Part shown: one piece after another, positions 363 to 21,826 of the stretch | Layout of the letters: each line of letters begins with the position of its first letter | How positions within the stretch are numbered: the first letter of the stretch is position 1 | Notes under the pieces: generated by a model | Told to the model about the DNA's origin: nothing | Seen by the model: the letters and a program-made list of their open reading frames with translations, nothing else | Databases searched by the model: none | Translations under genes and position numbers: made by a program | Origin: a virus | Virus record (IMG/VR): IMGVR_UViG_3300048004_000031 | Span: 1-25,504 of that record | Reading direction: 5' to 3' (one strand) | DNA: 25,504 bases

Positions 363-402
363 TCAGTACCAAAATAGAACCTACTCAGTACCAAAATAGA
401 AC
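363..402 (+). repeat. Tandem pair of identical 18-bp repeats (iteron-like)
   Basis: The 18-mer TCAGTACCAAAATAGAAC occurs at 363-380 and again, without a mismatch, at 385-402. The copies are separated by 4 bases, giving a 22-base period, close to two helical turns, so bound proteins would lie on the same DNA face. They sit about 200 bases upstream of the first gene. An operator for a repressor or activator, or a replication iteron, would both fit. Confidence 0.7.
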
Positions 403-1558: not shown

Positions 1559-1731
1559 ACCCAACACTACTTGACATAGCGATTCTATTCAGCTTTGTGC
1601 CAGTCTGGGCTGGCCTTTGCTGGGCTTATGAGAAGCATTCAGATCCACGAGCGCAACGCAGACGCAAGCGCAAGGCACGACGCAAGGAACTACGCAGAGA
1701 GTTACAGCGACAAGGGAGGCTGCTGCAATGA
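1555..1731 (+). CDS. Small single-pass membrane protein with basic tail (58 aa)
   Basis: The ATG overlaps the previous stop (ATGA, 1555-1558), with GGAGG about 10 bases upstream, and the stop overlaps the next start (1728-1731). Residues 4-24 are hydrophobic (LLDIAILFSFVPVWAGLCWAY) and look like one membrane segment. The rest is a dense Arg/Lys helix (about residues 31-53) with scattered glutamates. By the positive-inside rule the basic tail should face the cytoplasm. The function is unknown; small membrane proteins of phages can be involved in superinfection exclusion or lysis timing, but nothing specific is visible. Confidence 0.65.
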   Translation: MNPTLLDIAILFSFVPVWAGLCWAYEKHSDPRAQRRRKRKARRKELRRELQRQGRLLQ

Positions 1732-1946
1732 GATTCACAACGGCTCACAGATACTACGGCGTGTCCGCTGGTAACAACGGGCTTGTTATTGAGACGGACA
1801 GGCACTTGATTGATCTGTACTTTACAGGTACCTTTAGGCTATCGACGGCGTACATTCCAGCTGATAAGTTTTGCGGTAAGAGCTACATCGCATGGCTCGG
1901 ATGGCTACACGTTGAGATAACAGGGCAAGCAGTATTGGAGGCGTGA
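1728..1946 (+). CDS. Hypothetical protein (72 aa)
   Basis: The start is preceded by GGGAGG (about 1714-1719) and overlaps the upstream stop as ATGA. The protein alternates hydrophobic and polar residues (LVIETDRHLIDLYFTGTFRL), suggesting a small beta-rich fold, with several aromatics in the second half. No family recognised. Its TGA (1944-1946) is followed immediately, in the same frame, by a GTG start for the next gene, whose Shine-Dalgarno GGAG (1937-1940) lies in this gene's last codons. Confidence 0.75.
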   Translation: MRFTTAHRYYGVSAGNNGLVIETDRHLIDLYFTGTFRLSTAYIPADKFCGKSYIAWLGWLHVEITGQAVLEA

Positions 1947-2120
1947 GTGGGACGCAAGCAGAACGTAGTCATAGGTACGAAAGAATATTACATGTCACAA
2001 GTAGAAGTGGCAAAGGCGCTAGGTTTGACCAGATCAGAAGTGCAACAGGCAGAAGCAAGCGGTTTGAAAAAGCTGAAGCGATCCGGCAAGCTAAACAGAT
2101 TCTTAGGAGCAAAGGAATAA
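1947..2120 (+). CDS. Stand-alone sigma-70 region-4-like HTH protein (57 aa)
   Basis: Reading from GTG at 1947 gives a protein whose residues 16-45 follow the sigma-70 region 4.2 helix-turn-helix pattern: SQVEVAKALGLTRSEVQQ, then AEASGLKKLKR. The positions matching the sigma consensus are E20, A22, L25, G26, T28-R29, V32, Q34, E36 and L40-K41-K42-L43. In sigma factors this helix pair reads the -35 element. Here it stands alone, with only about 15 residues before it. GGAG at 1937-1940 lies 6 bases before GTG, and an internal ATG at 1992 is a weaker alternative start. A longer frame in another register (from 1943) covers the same DNA but reads as low-complexity Arg/Ser-rich sequence. Likely role, inferred: transcription regulator acting with host RNA polymerase. 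Confidence 0.75.
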   Translation: MGRKQNVVIGTKEYYMSQVEVAKALGLTRSEVQQAEASGLKKLKRSGKLNRFLGAKE

Positions 2121-2296
2121 TGCACATGATTGGTGTTCATACAACATATACAGTGGAGTTATACGACGATGTTTGGTCGCAGGTTTGGTCGATAGATTGT
2201 ATTGATCAAGCGAAGGACTACGTATATTCTAAACGTGGCAATGGTAAACGATACCGAATTGTCAAGCACACAACGGAGGTAATTTATGAACGGTGA
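2120..2296 (+). CDS. Small hypothetical protein (58 aa)
   Basis: The ATG shares a base with the previous stop (TAATG, 2118-2122). AGGAG (2105-2109) and AAGGA (2112-2116) lie upstream; a second ATG at 2126 is also possible. The protein (MHMIGVHTTYTVELYDDVWSQ...) looks like a small beta-alpha fold with Tyr, Trp and Lys. No family recognised. The frame stays open upstream to 1943, but that extension conflicts with the HTH gene, so the short form is preferred. Confidence 0.65.
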   Translation: MHMIGVHTTYTVELYDDVWSQVWSIDCIDQAKDYVYSKRGNGKRYRIVKHTTEVIYER

Positions 2297-2739: not shown

Positions 2740-4345
2740 AACACACCAGCCTTGTTCAGACTGCGGTAGCAGTGATGCGTTATCGTACAACGAGGACGGC
2801 TCTAGTTATTGTTTTAACTGTAGCAAGTACACCAAAGCCGCCAGCAGAGACAACGTACGAGAGCTAGGATCTATCAGCGATGCACCAAAGCCATCGTTTA
2901 GCCAGACAGAACACCGTTTAATTACAGCGGAGTATAGATCTATTACTGACCGCCTCATTACAGGAACAACGGCGAAGAAGTACGCAGCACTTAAGCAGGG
3001 TGACATCACAACATTCGGTTACTACAACCCTGAAGATCCAACAAAACCCATCGCCGCCAAGGTACGTAACCCAGACAAACGGTTCAGTATCATTGGTGAT
3101 TGGAAACAGGCTGGCTTGTATGGTCAACATTTGTTTCCTGAAGGTGGTAAGTATGTAACTATCGTTGAAGGTGAGTACGATGCGTTAGCGGCTCATCAAA
3201 TGACAGGTAGTATGTATCCCGTTGTCAGTGTCCGTAACGGTGCAACGTCGGCGGCAAAGGACTGTCGCCTTTTTTATGATTGGCTGAACAGCTTCGAGAA
3301 CATTGTTATTTGTTTCGATGCTGATGAGCCGGGACAGAAGGCAGCAAAGGAGTGTGCTGATCTGTTCGGTAACAAGGCAAGGATTGTTAAGCACGTCAAC
3401 GGCTACAAGGATGCGTGTGATTACCTTGTTAACAATCAGTCAGAACTGTATACGAAAGCGTTCTGGTCTGCTCAACCCTACACACCTGAAGGTATCGTTG
3501 GTGCTGGTGAGCTACGCGATCTGATCAAGAAGCCACTCACCAAGGCGAAGGTACAGTACCCGTTCGATGGGCTGAACAAACACCTGTACGGTATACGCAC
3601 GTCTGAACTGGTTACTATTTGTGCAGGCTCTGGACTGGGTAAGAGTACGCTACTGCGTGAGATAGTCAGTTCCATTATGGCACAGTCTGAAGATAACCTT
3701 GGGTTGATGTTCCTTGAAGAGACACCTGAGCGTACCATGCGTGGTCTTGTTGGTCTTGAACTGAACAAGCCTATCCACTTACCTGACTGTGAGTACGACG
3801 ACACTGACATTGACCTAGTGTACGATACGATGGACTATGAGAATCGTGTGTATCTCTGGGAACACTTCGGTAGTAACGAGATAGAAAACGTACTGGGCCG
3901 TATGAGATACTTCGTCAAGGTACTAGGCGTACGTTATATCGTACTGGATCACGTCTCTATCTTGGTATCTGACCAGAGCAACGGTGATGAGCGACGTGCC
4001 TTGGACATGATCATGACTAAGCTGCGGACGTTCGTACAAGAGATGGGGATTTGTATGTTCCTTGTAAGCCACCTGAGACGCCCTGAAGGGAAGCAATTGG
4101 AGGACGGTGCTGTCACTAGCCTTGGTATGTTACGTGGCTCTGCGTCGATTGCACAGCTGTCTGATGCGGTCATCGGTGCTGAACGTAACAGTCAGAGTGA
4201 TGATCCTGTTGTTAGAAACACGACCGTGCTGCGTGTGTTGAAGAACCGATACACTGGCAAGACAGGCAAGGCGTGTGAGGTGTTCTACAACGAAGCAACA
4301 GGACGACTAACACAACGTGATGAACGTGAGGAGAAACCGTTATGA
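2726..4345 (+). CDS. T7 gp4-like DNA primase-helicase (539 aa)
   Basis: Bifunctional replisome protein: it unwinds DNA ahead of the polymerase and synthesises lagging-strand primers. Domains in order: an N-terminal zinc-binding domain with C10-x2-C13 and C29-x2-C32; a TOPRIM primase domain with VEGE (E148, E150) and the DAD triad (D198, D200); and a RecA-like hexameric helicase. The helicase shows Walker A GSGLGKST (301-308), the catalytic EE after FL (331-332), Walker B ending in D408, the SHLRRPEG motif (448-455) and LRG (469-471) as arginine-finger region. Length is close to T7 gp4 (566). The start at 2726 is chosen because GGGAGCAGGA lies just upstream and the zinc domain begins normally. 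An upstream ATG at 2684 would add 14 unlikely residues inside the previous gene. The stop overlaps the next ATG. Confidence 0.95.
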   Translation: MAFTETHQPCSDCGSSDALSYNEDGSSYCFNCSKYTKAASRDNVRELGSISDAPKPSFSQTEHRLITAEYRSITDRLITGTTAKKYAALKQGDITTFGYYNPEDPTKPIAAKVRNPDKRFSIIGDWKQAGLYGQHLFPEGGKYVTIVEGEYDALAAHQMTGSMYPVVSVRNGATSAAKDCRLFYDWLNSFENIVICFDADEPGQKAAKECADLFGNKARIVKHVNGYKDACDYLVNNQSELYTKAFWSAQPYTPEGIVGAGELRDLIKKPLTKAKVQYPFDGLNKHLYGIRTSELVTICAGSGLGKSTLLREIVSSIMAQSEDNLGLMFLEETPERTMRGLVGLELNKPIHLPDCEYDDTDIDLVYDTMDYENRVYLWEHFGSNEIENVLGRMRYFVKVLGVRYIVLDHVSILVSDQSNGDERRALDMIMTKLRTFVQEMGICMFLVSHLRRPEGKQLEDGAVTSLGMLRGSASIAQLSDAVIGAERNSQSDDPVVRNTTVLRVLKNRYTGKTGKACEVFYNEATGRLTQRDEREEKPL

Positions 4346-4893
4346 GTCAAAGATGCCGACCTATGTTTTATGTACCGCCTGAAGATGGCGCAGTTAGCTT
4401 TGAGCGTAATCCTGAGTGTGAAGAGCGTGGAGATTTTCACGAGACCATCGACGCTGGTGAATTTGATTTCGCATTAGCTCATACTATGGCTTTCATGGTA
4501 TTGTTAAACGACAAGTTTGAAGAGATAGGAGAGTACGAAGAGCATTTTATGAAGGAAGCTAAAAGAGTTTTTAAAAGTTTCTCTAAATGGCAGGACGATA
4601 CAAGCCACATTCCTTTTGAGTACGACTGGCAAGAGTATGATTCTCCGTATAATCCAATGGCAAATATAGCGATACTGGCAAACGAAATTAATGTGTGCAA
4701 AGATGTTGCTAACGATTGGTTAGTAGATGAAGCTTTTGAAGAGCTAGAAATCCCTATTTATACTGAAAACTTAAGCAAAGAAGATAGAGAAAAAGTATCA
4801 GATCTTATCTTTTATTGGCATGGTGAGTGGTTCCATAGCGAAGAAGGTAAAGAGTGGTTAGCTAAGAAAAAGATAGAGTTGGGGCAGAGTTAA
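4342..4893 (+). CDS. Acidic hypothetical protein (183 aa)
   Basis: Starts within the primase-helicase stop (ATGA, 4342-4345) and ends sharing a base with the next start (TAATG). The protein is acidic and helical, rich in Glu, Asp, Phe and Trp, with no cysteine pair motif and no membrane segment. Its coding DNA, especially 4500-4880, looks AT-richer and uses more AAA/GAA/TTA codons than the flanking polymerase and primase genes, which hints at later acquisition. No family recognised. Confidence 0.8.
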   Translation: MSQRCRPMFYVPPEDGAVSFERNPECEERGDFHETIDAGEFDFALAHTMAFMVLLNDKFEEIGEYEEHFMKEAKRVFKSFSKWQDDTSHIPFEYDWQEYDSPYNPMANIAILANEINVCKDVANDWLVDEAFEELEIPIYTENLSKEDREKVSDLIFYWHGEWFHSEEGKEWLAKKKIELGQS

Positions 4894-5135
4894 TGAGATG
4901 CAAAGCGTGTGATGTAGATCTTACAGACTACGAAGCGACAAGACGGTATGCTATTAGCCAAGAGTTTGTAGACTTGTGCAACAGATGCTTCGCTGTTAGT
5001 CTTGATGACGGTGATGTGATTGACCGTGCTGATCTACGTACACTCGCAGACATAGAGGAGATGATTTACCATGAGCAAGATTGGGAGTTGGATATTGGAA
5101 CAGGAACAGTTGATGGAGACTTACAGGAAGTTTAA
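4893..5135 (+). CDS. Small zinc-ribbon-like protein (80 aa)
   Basis: Residues C3-x2-C6 and C29-x2-C32 form two CxxC knuckles separated by 22 residues, the pattern of a zinc ribbon. The rest is acidic and helical. It starts at TAATG, coupled to the previous gene. Its last 65 bases overlap another candidate gene (5071-5301), and its C-terminal residues (GTGTVDGDLQEV) look less protein-like than the N-terminus. Partner or nucleic acid is unknown; the site between primase and polymerase suggests a replication accessory role. Confidence 0.7.
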   Translation: MRCKACDVDLTDYEATRRYAISQEFVDLCNRCFAVSLDDGDVIDRADLRTLADIEEMIYHEQDWELDIGTGTVDGDLQEV

Positions 5136-18746: not shown

Positions 18747-19394
18747 TCACGGCGTGTAGAAGACTACTTCTTCTGGGTGCTTTTGAGCGTCTAGTGCAAT
18801 AGCGTCAGACAGGTACTTATCAGCAATGCTAAAGTATTCAGGAGCAGAAGTGCCTCCGGTTTCTCCACGTTCACGGGCCAACAGAGCAATAGCTAAGTGG
18901 ATAATAGGCATACTAGGTACTAACGTCTCGTCACTGTCAGCAGACAAGTCAGCGTCACGTTTAACACAGTTAAAACGAATTGTGTACGCTTTTTCAGGAG
19001 TAGGGTAAATGTCTACCTGAGTGTCACCGTTGCTATCAACACCGTTGTACGTGTAGTACGTTGGCGCGCCTGTACGTGGGTCTGAGATTAAGTAAGCCTC
19101 ATCAAAGAACGTAGCTGTCTTGTACTCCATAAACAAGTTAGCCGTGTCGTTGATTACGTTAAGTGCTTTGATTCTATTCTGGCTTCCCGTTAGTACGTAA
19201 TTAAAGACGTCAGCAGTAGTAGTAATCGTTAGGGTAGTCCTGAGTGCTGACCAGTCCCATGCGTCCTCTACCATACGCTTTGCGTCGTTAACAAAGTCCC
19301 CTACCATTTTTGCATAGGTAGTAGAAGCAACAGAAGTAACTTCTTCTTCTCGCATCCTTCGCAGGACGTTGTTTACTATGTTTAAATAAGTCAT
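18747..19394 (-). CDS. Tail tube A-like head-tail adaptor (215 aa)
   Basis: Pattern of T7 gp11-like adaptors: an N-terminal helical region (YLNIVNNVLRRMREEEV, then YAKMVGDFVNDAKRMVEDAWDW), a beta domain (RTTLTITTTADVFNYVLTG, QNRIKALNVIND) and a C-terminal helix pair (MPIIHLAIALLARERGE and YLSDAIALDAQKHPEE). Length (215) is close to T7 gp11 (196). It joins portal to nozzle in the virion. The start overlaps the preceding stop (ATGA), with GGAAG just upstream. Confidence 0.85.
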   Translation of the reverse strand: MTYLNIVNNVLRRMREEEVTSVASTTYAKMVGDFVNDAKRMVEDAWDWSALRTTLTITTTADVFNYVLTGSQNRIKALNVINDTANLFMEYKTATFFDEAYLISDPRTGAPTYYTYNGVDSNGDTQVDIYPTPEKAYTIRFNCVKRDADLSADSDETLVPSMPIIHLAIALLARERGETGGTSAPEYFSIADKYLSDAIALDAQKHPEEVVFYTP

Positions 19395-21826
19395 ATCATT
19401 CTTCCAAACAAACTTCTTTCAATAAGAGCGTCTAGTTCTGCTACGTAATCTTTCTTAGGTACAGCAATCTGACGAATCTGAGGTGTTTGATACGCAATGC
19501 CGTACTGAGACACACCGTCAGTTTCAAAAGGAGTACCAGAAAGCATACCTCCGCCTAAACCAGTTCCTTCTCCAGTTCCGTCACCATCTCCAGCGCCAGT
19601 ACCGTCTCCAGTGCCTTCACCCTCGCCAGCACCTGTTCCTTCACCAACGCCCTCGTCACCTGCTTGGTCTTCACCTGTTGCTGGTTCCTCTGAAGGCTGT
19701 TCTGCTCCTGTTTCTTCTGGAGTAGTTTCAGCTTCTGGTGTAGGTTCTGCGGGTGTTTCTACAGGCTCCGCTGGTTCTGCTGGTTCTACAGCTTCATCAA
19801 TAGCTTCTTGAATTGGATCTGGTTCTACTGGAGTTTCTGCAGGAGTTTCTGCAGGAGTTTCTGCAGGAGTTTCTGCAGGAGTTTCTGCAGGAGTTTCTGC
19901 AGGAGTTTCTGCAGGAGTTTCTGCAGGAGTTTCTGCAGGAGTTTCTACTGGAGTCTCTACTGGAATCTCTACTGGAGTCTCTACTGGAGTCTCTACTGGA
20001 GTCTCTACTGGAGGTTCTACTGGAATCTCTACTGGAGTCTCTACTGGAGTCTCTACTGGAGTCTCTACTGGAGGTTCTACTGGAGGTTGAATAGGAGGTA
20101 GCTCTACTCTTACATCAGGAAGATCTGGAAGTTCAAAAGTAGGGGTTTCTGTCTCTTCTCTTGTTTCAGCTTCTTCTGCTACGTCTTCTGCGCCTAACTC
20201 AGGGCCAGTGTCTATTAACGAAGGAAGGTCAGAGTCTTCTGCTGCGTCTCCTTCAGCAATGTCCTCAGCTTGTTCAGCTGCTTCTTCGTATCTGTCTTGA
20301 GCTGCTTCTTCAATTTCTGTAGTCCACTCACGGTCTGTATACTGCTCCCACTGTCTGATTAAACCTTCTCTAACTTCTGGATCAGTCTCTCTAATAATAG
20401 CTTCTTCAATTTGTCTTCTTACAATATCTTCGTCATCTTCAAGCTCTACTTCTTCTACTACGGATATTACGTCTTCGCCTACTTCTTCAGTTTCTGTTTC
20501 AAATCCACCCTCCGCAGGAACAGAGTCAGCCAACTCAGAGTCAGCGTCTTCTACTGTATCTTCTTCAGCAATGTCTACTACTTCTACAGGCTGCTGTGGT
20601 ATAGGGGCTTGCCTTGGTGGGTCTCCTTTTACTGGCCCTGTTGGCTCTCCTTCTACTTCGGGAGCAGCTTCAGCGCCACCTCCGCCTTCTGGCTCAGGTT
20701 CTGGCTCAGGTTCTGGCTCCGGCTCAGGTTCTGGCAAAGGCTCAAGCTCAATTTCTAACTCGTCTTCAATAACATCAGGTTCTTGTTGTTGTTCCGGTTC
20801 GATTTCTTCAGTTTCAAGAACGTCTTCTACAATAGGAGTGTCAGGTTCTGGCTCTACGTCCGTAATAATTCGTATTGCTTCAGATACTATGTTGTTAATT
20901 TGTTCCGGAGTACTTTCTTCGTTTTCTTCTAGCTCATTAACTGCTTCTACCATGTTTATAATAACATTAGCATTGTTAAGAGCCGAAGCAGCCTCACTTA
21001 CGGAATAGCCTGCTTGATCGAACCTATCAAATACTTGAGAAACAACCTGAAGACTTTCGCCTAAATTTCCTAACGCTGCTTGGTCTGAAAGAAAGTTAGC
21101 AAAACGGCCTGTTGCTTCGCCTACCATCAAACCTATAGCAAATTCTATAGCAGCTTTTATGTAAGGAGTGGCTGAGTCGTCTACTTCATAAATTTCCGCA
21201 GAATTAAGACCGTTAAACTGAAAAACGTCTCCGTCGTTGTTTTGAAATATAAGATCTACATTATGATCTTGTAGTAACTGCTGATATGCAGGAAGCGCAT
21301 TCATAGCTTCAAGAGCAGTTCTAATTTCAGTTGTTCTATTTTGATTTGCGTCTATTAAAGCAGTAGATCCCGAACGCATGTCCTCCTCTTCCATGCCGTA
21401 GTAATAACTGGAAGGATCGCTCGTTGCGTCGTAAGTTTCTCCTGTAGTGCTGTCTAGTCTTCCAATATCCCACCAAGCAATTTCTGGATTCTCTTCTGCA
21501 AGAGCAAGCATTCCGTCCATGTAGGAAAGATAATTATTAAAGTCACCAAAAGTTCTTTTAAGATCAGAGTTTTGATTAAATTCAATTTGAAGCTGAGATT
21601 GCGTTAAAAAATTAACTTGTTGGTCTTGCCACGATTCTCTTTGAGCGCCACTGCCTAAATCTCTTGTAGAATACATATATGGGTATATGGCTTCTTGTTC
21701 CTGCCTAACAGGAGCAGTAGTAGGAATATCTGTGGGGGCAGTCGGAGAAGTTGATATTGTTTCTACAACACCACGATTAAAGTCGTCAAGTCCTGTCAAC
21801 ATTCCTATTGTAGGTCGTAATGCCAT
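19391..21826 (-). CDS. Acidic virion-cluster protein with TPVE/TPAE repeats (811 aa)
   Basis: Three parts. Residues 1 to about 300 look globular and helical. The centre is very acidic with a Glu-Pro run (near LEPLPEPEPEPEPEPE), a GGGG hinge and more Glu/Asp helix. Next is a Pro/Glu/Thr tetrapeptide array (PVE and PAE units, DNA 19822-20085), then a Gly/Glu/Asp/Thr-rich linker. A compact C-terminal peptide (TPFETDGVSQYGIAYQTPQIRQ..., ending KDYVAELDALIERSLFGRMI) looks conserved rather than repetitive. There is no enzyme motif and no membrane segment. A long extended linker between two ordered ends suggests a structural or scaffold-like tether in the virion; this is inference. It lies between the holin and the tail tube genes. 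Confidence 0.75.
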   Translation of the reverse strand: MALRPTIGMLTGLDDFNRGVVETISTSPTAPTDIPTTAPVRQEQEAIYPYMYSTRDLGSGAQRESWQDQQVNFLTQSQLQIEFNQNSDLKRTFGDFNNYLSYMDGMLALAEENPEIAWWDIGRLDSTTGETYDATSDPSSYYYGMEEEDMRSGSTALIDANQNRTTEIRTALEAMNALPAYQQLLQDHNVDLIFQNNDGDVFQFNGLNSAEIYEVDDSATPYIKAAIEFAIGLMVGEATGRFANFLSDQAALGNLGESLQVVSQVFDRFDQAGYSVSEAASALNNANVIINMVEAVNELEENEESTPEQINNIVSEAIRIITDVEPEPDTPIVEDVLETEEIEPEQQQEPDVIEDELEIELEPLPEPEPEPEPEPEPEPEGGGGAEAAPEVEGEPTGPVKGDPPRQAPIPQQPVEVVDIAEEDTVEDADSELADSVPAEGGFETETEEVGEDVISVVEEVELEDDEDIVRRQIEEAIIRETDPEVREGLIRQWEQYTDREWTTEIEEAAQDRYEEAAEQAEDIAEGDAAEDSDLPSLIDTGPELGAEDVAEEAETREETETPTFELPDLPDVRVELPPIQPPVEPPVETPVETPVETPVEIPVEPPVETPVETPVETPVEIPVETPVETPAETPAETPAETPAETPAETPAETPAETPAETPAETPVEPDPIQEAIDEAVEPAEPAEPVETPAEPTPEAETTPEETGAEQPSEEPATGEDQAGDEGVGEGTGAGEGEGTGDGTGAGDGDGTGEGTGLGGGMLSGTPFETDGVSQYGIAYQTPQIRQIAVPKKDYVAELDALIERSLFGRMI
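19822..20085 (-). repeat. 12-bp tandem repeat array (22 units) inside the 811-aa gene
   Basis: Twenty-two 12-base units run without interruption. Nine consecutive units (19834-19941) are identical, TTTCTGCAGGAG on the + strand, encoding ETPA. One unit before and twelve after are variants of TCTCTACTGGAG encoding TPVE, IPVE or PPVE. The twelve-unit part contains a higher-order 60-base period (19954-20013 and 20014-20073). Absence of synonymous changes in the nine-unit block indicates recent expansion by slippage. Units are in frame, so length can change without a frameshift. Confidence 0.95.

Follow-up and report, generated by a model that had tools for sequence, protein, structure and literature searches.

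Does a 57-codon reading frame hidden beneath a longer one in a phage genome encode a genuine protein, and what would a product resembling only one DNA-reading piece of a sigma factor do for the phage? The window analysed here is a 25,504-nucleotide stretch of viral DNA (IMG/VR record IMGVR_UViG_3300048004_000031, positions 1 to 25,504). A first-pass annotation had picked out a 57-residue product carrying the motifs ALGLTRSEVQQ and LKKLKR, and this frame is found exactly at positions 1947–2120 on the plus strand. It starts with GTG and ends with TAA at 2118–2120, and a GGAGG at 1937–1941 (plus strand), read from the sequence five bases ahead of the GTG, is its likely ribosome-binding site. Directly abutting the GTG is the TGA (1944–1946) of an upstream 72-aa gene (1728–1946, plus strand), which relatives conserve whether or not they have the helix-turn-helix (HTH) gene.

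Homologues were gathered from IMG/VR in two steps, a protein search followed by a profile search, giving 45 distinct full-length family members with the window included. They are uniformly 54–64 aa long, and most have a single possible start. The frame of 1947 is open in all 45, a count that holds partly by construction because the homologues were picked by protein match. Two other measures are free of this effect. The frame of the overlapping ORF at 1943–2296 is open in one member out of 45, namely the window itself, and the median dN/dS of the mini-protein gene is about 0.15 (246 pairs). Differences among the 45 homologues number 16202, 13182 and 29260 at the first, second and third codon positions, with third positions making up about half of the total. 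The gene is thus under purifying selection.

The opposite reading is that the short frame is spurious, or the decaying remnant of a sigma gene, and that 1943–2296 (117 aa) is the real gene, as might be supposed from the window, where the latter is the longer frame. Besides the 45 homologues of even length, their low dN/dS and the closure of the alternative frame in 44 of them, the fate of the longer frame's second half speaks against this. Relatives conserve only residues 58/62–117 of the long ORF, where these make up a gene of their own (53–58 aa), and the true downstream gene of the window runs from 2120 or 2126 to 2296 (plus strand), with a product of 58 aa if it starts at ATG 2120 and of 56 aa if it starts at ATG 2126. 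The ATG at 2120 shares one base with the TAA that ends the HTH gene. Since only its second half is conserved, and this as an independent gene, the long ORF is an artefact in which two adjacent genes are read as one by accident. On these comparisons of reading frames, we consider the idea of a spurious short frame refuted and almost certainly wrong. The masking frame that had been noticed is thus present but spurious, and the short gene beneath it is real and conserved.

Insertions around the gene were observed in some relatives. Three contigs (L001, L002 and L003) hold an extra 62-aa gene between the HTH gene and the downstream gene. In L067, the HTH gene is separated from the homologue of the 72-aa gene by a 226-aa gene with a 'MYSGGLDS' PP-loop-like motif (3554–4234). 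Some phages of a second lineage encode a 290-aa protein with cytosine DNA methyltransferase motifs upstream of the HTH gene, either directly or at a distance of one gene (L095, 3968–4840; L101, 2070–2942; L138, 4108–4980). In addition, a small protein of the window that starts with MRCKAC and is possibly a zinc ribbon (4893–5135) has a relative in that lineage as well, encoded three genes further downstream than the HTH gene.

To which family does the product belong? The window protein matches Pfam Sigma70_r4 (PF04545) with an E-value of 5.3e-7 and 29.5 bits, against a curated cut-off of 24.1, and so do all 13 family members tested. When the family profile was compared with solved structures, region 4 of sigma-A/RpoD came out on top (best 1.8e-6), and the aligned stretch extends from the HTH to the C-terminal tail ('RSxKLxxFL'). 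Sigma factors are also preferred in the NCBIfam and PHROG scans, where transcription proteins give the best family matches. The HTH proposed from the sequence thus has a match in profile searches, and of the two outcomes named in advance as refuting the proposal, a conserved 1943–2296 frame in relatives or the lack of any HTH match, neither occurred. HTH_3, the Cro/CI-like family, is a weaker yet real second match by profile score: the window protein scores 6.3e-4 and 20.2 bits, below the cut-off of 23, and other members do better, up to 2.4e-6. A 'putative cro repressor' of phage PAN70 is 54% identical over 26 aa (E = 0.5).

An AlphaFold2 model built on the family alignment places helices at residues 18–25 and 29–46, with core pLDDT above 90 and coil before residue 18. 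The first HTH helix would correspond to positions 1998–2021 and the extended recognition helix, which profiles align to sigma70 from R584 on, to 2031–2084 (both plus strand). The top structural matches from Foldseek and VIA are mostly sigma region 4, with weak scores: all Foldseek E-values exceed 0.1 and no VIA Z exceeds 4.1, so that structure alone cannot separate HTH families. The modelled fold thus supports the assignment to sigma region 4 without proving it.

Despite this kinship, the protein is not a sigma factor. It lacks regions 1–3 and region 4.1. In Pfam, region 2, which binds the core enzyme and reads the −10 element, has no match in the 57-aa protein, and Sigma70_r4 is the only sigma domain matched, as expected from the original description of a stand-alone region 4.2-like product. 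The helices of region 4.1 are absent as well: the family profile aligns to sigma chains from the 4.2 HTH onward (profile positions 15–17), and no helix is modelled before residue 18. In sigma70, R584, E585 and R588 have been linked to recognition of the −35 element (PMC2613000). Among the 45 members, R584 is kept in 32 and replaced in 13, and E585 and R588 are kept in none. The notion of a detached −35-reading domain is therefore not supported, and the protein would not be expected to read TTGACA or to act as a sigma factor. Compared with primary sigma factors (RpoD/SigA, PF04545), it has in common the HTH, the extended recognition helix, the signature EV......TR..(I/V)..(I)E..AL.KL and the 'RSxKLxxFL' tail, and differs in the missing regions and in the exchanged −35 residues. 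That a detached region 4.2 joins the host RNA polymerase and lends it a new upstream specificity, as a sigma split in trans for an accessory class of promoters, is very improbable.

What, then, might such a protein do? We favour, as the probable answer, a small sequence-specific transcription regulator with a sigma-4.2-type HTH. It would be made from the early operon, presumably transcribed by the host RNA polymerase, and would contact DNA directly through its extended recognition helix. The window protein is basic (pI 10.2), and net charge in the family ranges from +3 to +8. Positions 28–35 of the recognition helix mostly vary between subfamilies, the helix face reading TRSEVQQAE, TRAEVQHTE, HRITVQKIE, TQTDVKRIE or TETDVKRIE, and E36, K42, L43 and L49 are invariant. 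A varied face on a fixed scaffold is what would be expected if each subfamily owned a separate DNA site. Since an HTH of only two helices makes a domain of marginal stability, the protein is probably dimeric on DNA. Isolated region 4 of E. coli sigma has been described as intrinsically disordered in water (PMC4236625), and the lone HTH may likewise need a partner or DNA for folding. In its simplest form, the regulator would block or tune phage or host promoters, and the small repressor named in the first-pass annotation is a possible version of it. We infer the DNA binding, dimerisation and repression, as well as the existence of a target. Cro/CI-type HTH_3 repressors, which usually have about five helices, give weaker matches than sigma region 4, and the mini-protein has two confident helices only. 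Late regulators of the RinA/ArpU type were also considered, and no paper or family match supported them.

The kinship with sigma factors invites another thought, namely that the protein is a decoy directed at the host enzyme: bound there, for instance at the beta flap, it would take the place of sigma region 4 or imitate it, and so lower or redirect host promoter recognition. Its closest relatives are indeed sigma region 4, and the family never varies at the positions that match sigma70 K597 and L598. Moreover, the phages seem to depend on the host enzyme: as had been noted for this sequence, a phage-type RNA polymerase was not found in the window, nor in 11 related contigs of 30.9–37.7 kb, in a search that detected the T7 positive control. 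Host RNA polymerase is also a known target of small modifying phage proteins: Xp10 P7 and T4 AsiA act at the contact between sigma region 4 and the beta flap (PMC3985653), although no sequence or fold match of the mini-protein to either was seen. On the other hand, much of the flap-binding groove is formed by the region 4.1 helices, exactly the part that is missing here, where the residues before 18 are modelled as coil.

The distribution of the gene bears on the same point. In the window's lineage, contigs were fetched by the exonuclease gene, so they were not selected for the HTH gene, and those holding both an upstream neighbour and the primase were counted (n = 24, not deduplicated). The HTH gene is present in 10 of these locus-spanning contigs and absent from 14, including the 37.7-kb record G001. 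In this record and in G003 the leader repeat recurs close to both ends, a sign that both contigs are probably complete. Gene-less relatives that were tested have no Sigma70_r4 (PF04545) match elsewhere, so there is no detectable diverged copy. The second phage lineage was sampled through a different gene; here the HTH gene is present at 27 of 28 loci, and the sole exception is a contig that ends close upstream of the anchor gene. The gene is thus near-universal in the second lineage and accessory in that of the window. A gene missing from 14 of 24 related contigs is no core take-over factor, and this patchiness, together with the lack of region 4.1, makes a role at RNA polymerase less likely; we consider it unlikely overall.

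If the mini-protein is a DNA-binding regulator, where is its operator? The leader of the phage (window 1–606; also L172 and L175) sits between the leftward late operon, with a terminase small subunit-like gene, and the early operon. It contains a tandem repeat at 364–402 (plus strand), two copies of CAGTACCAAAATAGAAC with a 22-bp period, for which two 17-bp copies compare with 0.10 expected by chance. The repeats are conserved in many relatives, between the divergent arms and beside DnaA-box-like TTATCCACA/TTATCAACA sites, and the leader may be an origin or control hub. In some relatives the 22-bp repeat reads GTTC-N7-GAAC.

The repeats at 363–402 had been put forward as the binding site, and they are a candidate target only. 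They also occur in three gene-less contigs (L025, L027 and L031, of which L025 and L031 are partial), and within the window's lineage in 14 of 27 gene-bearing against 2 of 8 gene-less leaders (p = 0.24). None of 15 distinct second-lineage leaders has them, nor do records G004–G007. As the repeats do not track the HTH gene within the lineage or in the second one, their role as its operator was rejected and the proposed binding is unsupported. Among 8- to 10-mers, none convincingly separated gene-bearing from gene-less leaders, the differences following lineage, and the leader comparison found no operator that tracks the gene. A scan of positions 1–2600 for sigma-70 promoters gave 9 sites versus 7.2 expected.

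The leader also brings up a role outside transcription, in which the protein is a DNA-binding adaptor, for instance in replication at the DnaA-box-like sites or in packaging. Its gene lies near replication genes, many relatives have the sites, and PHROG gives a weak match to terminase small subunit. Yet the leader with its sites is equally found in the gene-less L027 and L031, relatives carry a separate terminase small subunit gene (named from position and sequence), and the best family matches, as described above, belong to transcription. Such an adaptor appears less likely again than the polymerase decoy.

How does the presumed regulator relate to what is already known? Several stand-alone proteins of uncultured Caudovirales phages are named 'RNA polymerase sigma-70 region 4' (A0A6J5N2N3, 54 aa; A0A6J5LCA9, 62 aa; A0A6J5KJE7, 67 aa; A0A6J5LV43, 75 aa). 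They are similar in length and have a region-4-like fold, and the top hits in a viral structure library are such proteins, headed by A0A6J5N2N3 with 34% identity over 47 columns, but the sequences differ and E-values are weak (0.15 and above). With members of 54–64 aa, our family fits the description of a short phage protein with little but a region-4-like HTH, and it is an addition to these already named, uncharacterised mini-proteins. The open literature that was searched yielded no account of phage proteins made up of sigma region 4 alone, although one may still exist. Annotated phage records yielded no convincing homologue of the window protein or of one second-lineage member, and a single-pattern scan of 84,980 bacterial and archaeal genomes gave no relative, with one chance match inside a ParB-like protein. 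The family shows that pieces resembling the sigma C-terminus spread among phages as small proteins in their own right, with diverged DNA-reading residues. As a plain mini-repressor the protein would be ordinary; were contact with RNA polymerase true, it would be a minimal host take-over tool for phages without their own polymerase.

In these phages, the early arm runs rightward with primase/helicase, DNA polymerase, exonuclease and ribonucleotide reductase, and the late arm is opposed to it. Two opposed arms are also found in cobaviruses and other phages of the T7 supergroup that lack an RNA polymerase (PMC6775973), and the window phages are cobavirus-like in this layout, in their primase/helicase, DNA polymerase and ribonucleotide reductase, and in having no RNA polymerase. 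Their primase is about 44% identical to those of Roseobacter phages CRP-113, CRP-125 and CRP-171 and at best 48% identical to that of Pelagibacter phage HTVC104P. In the late arm of the window, an 811-aa protein (19391–21826, minus strand) contains long proline/glutamate/threonine repeats such as PVETPVE and PAETPAE.
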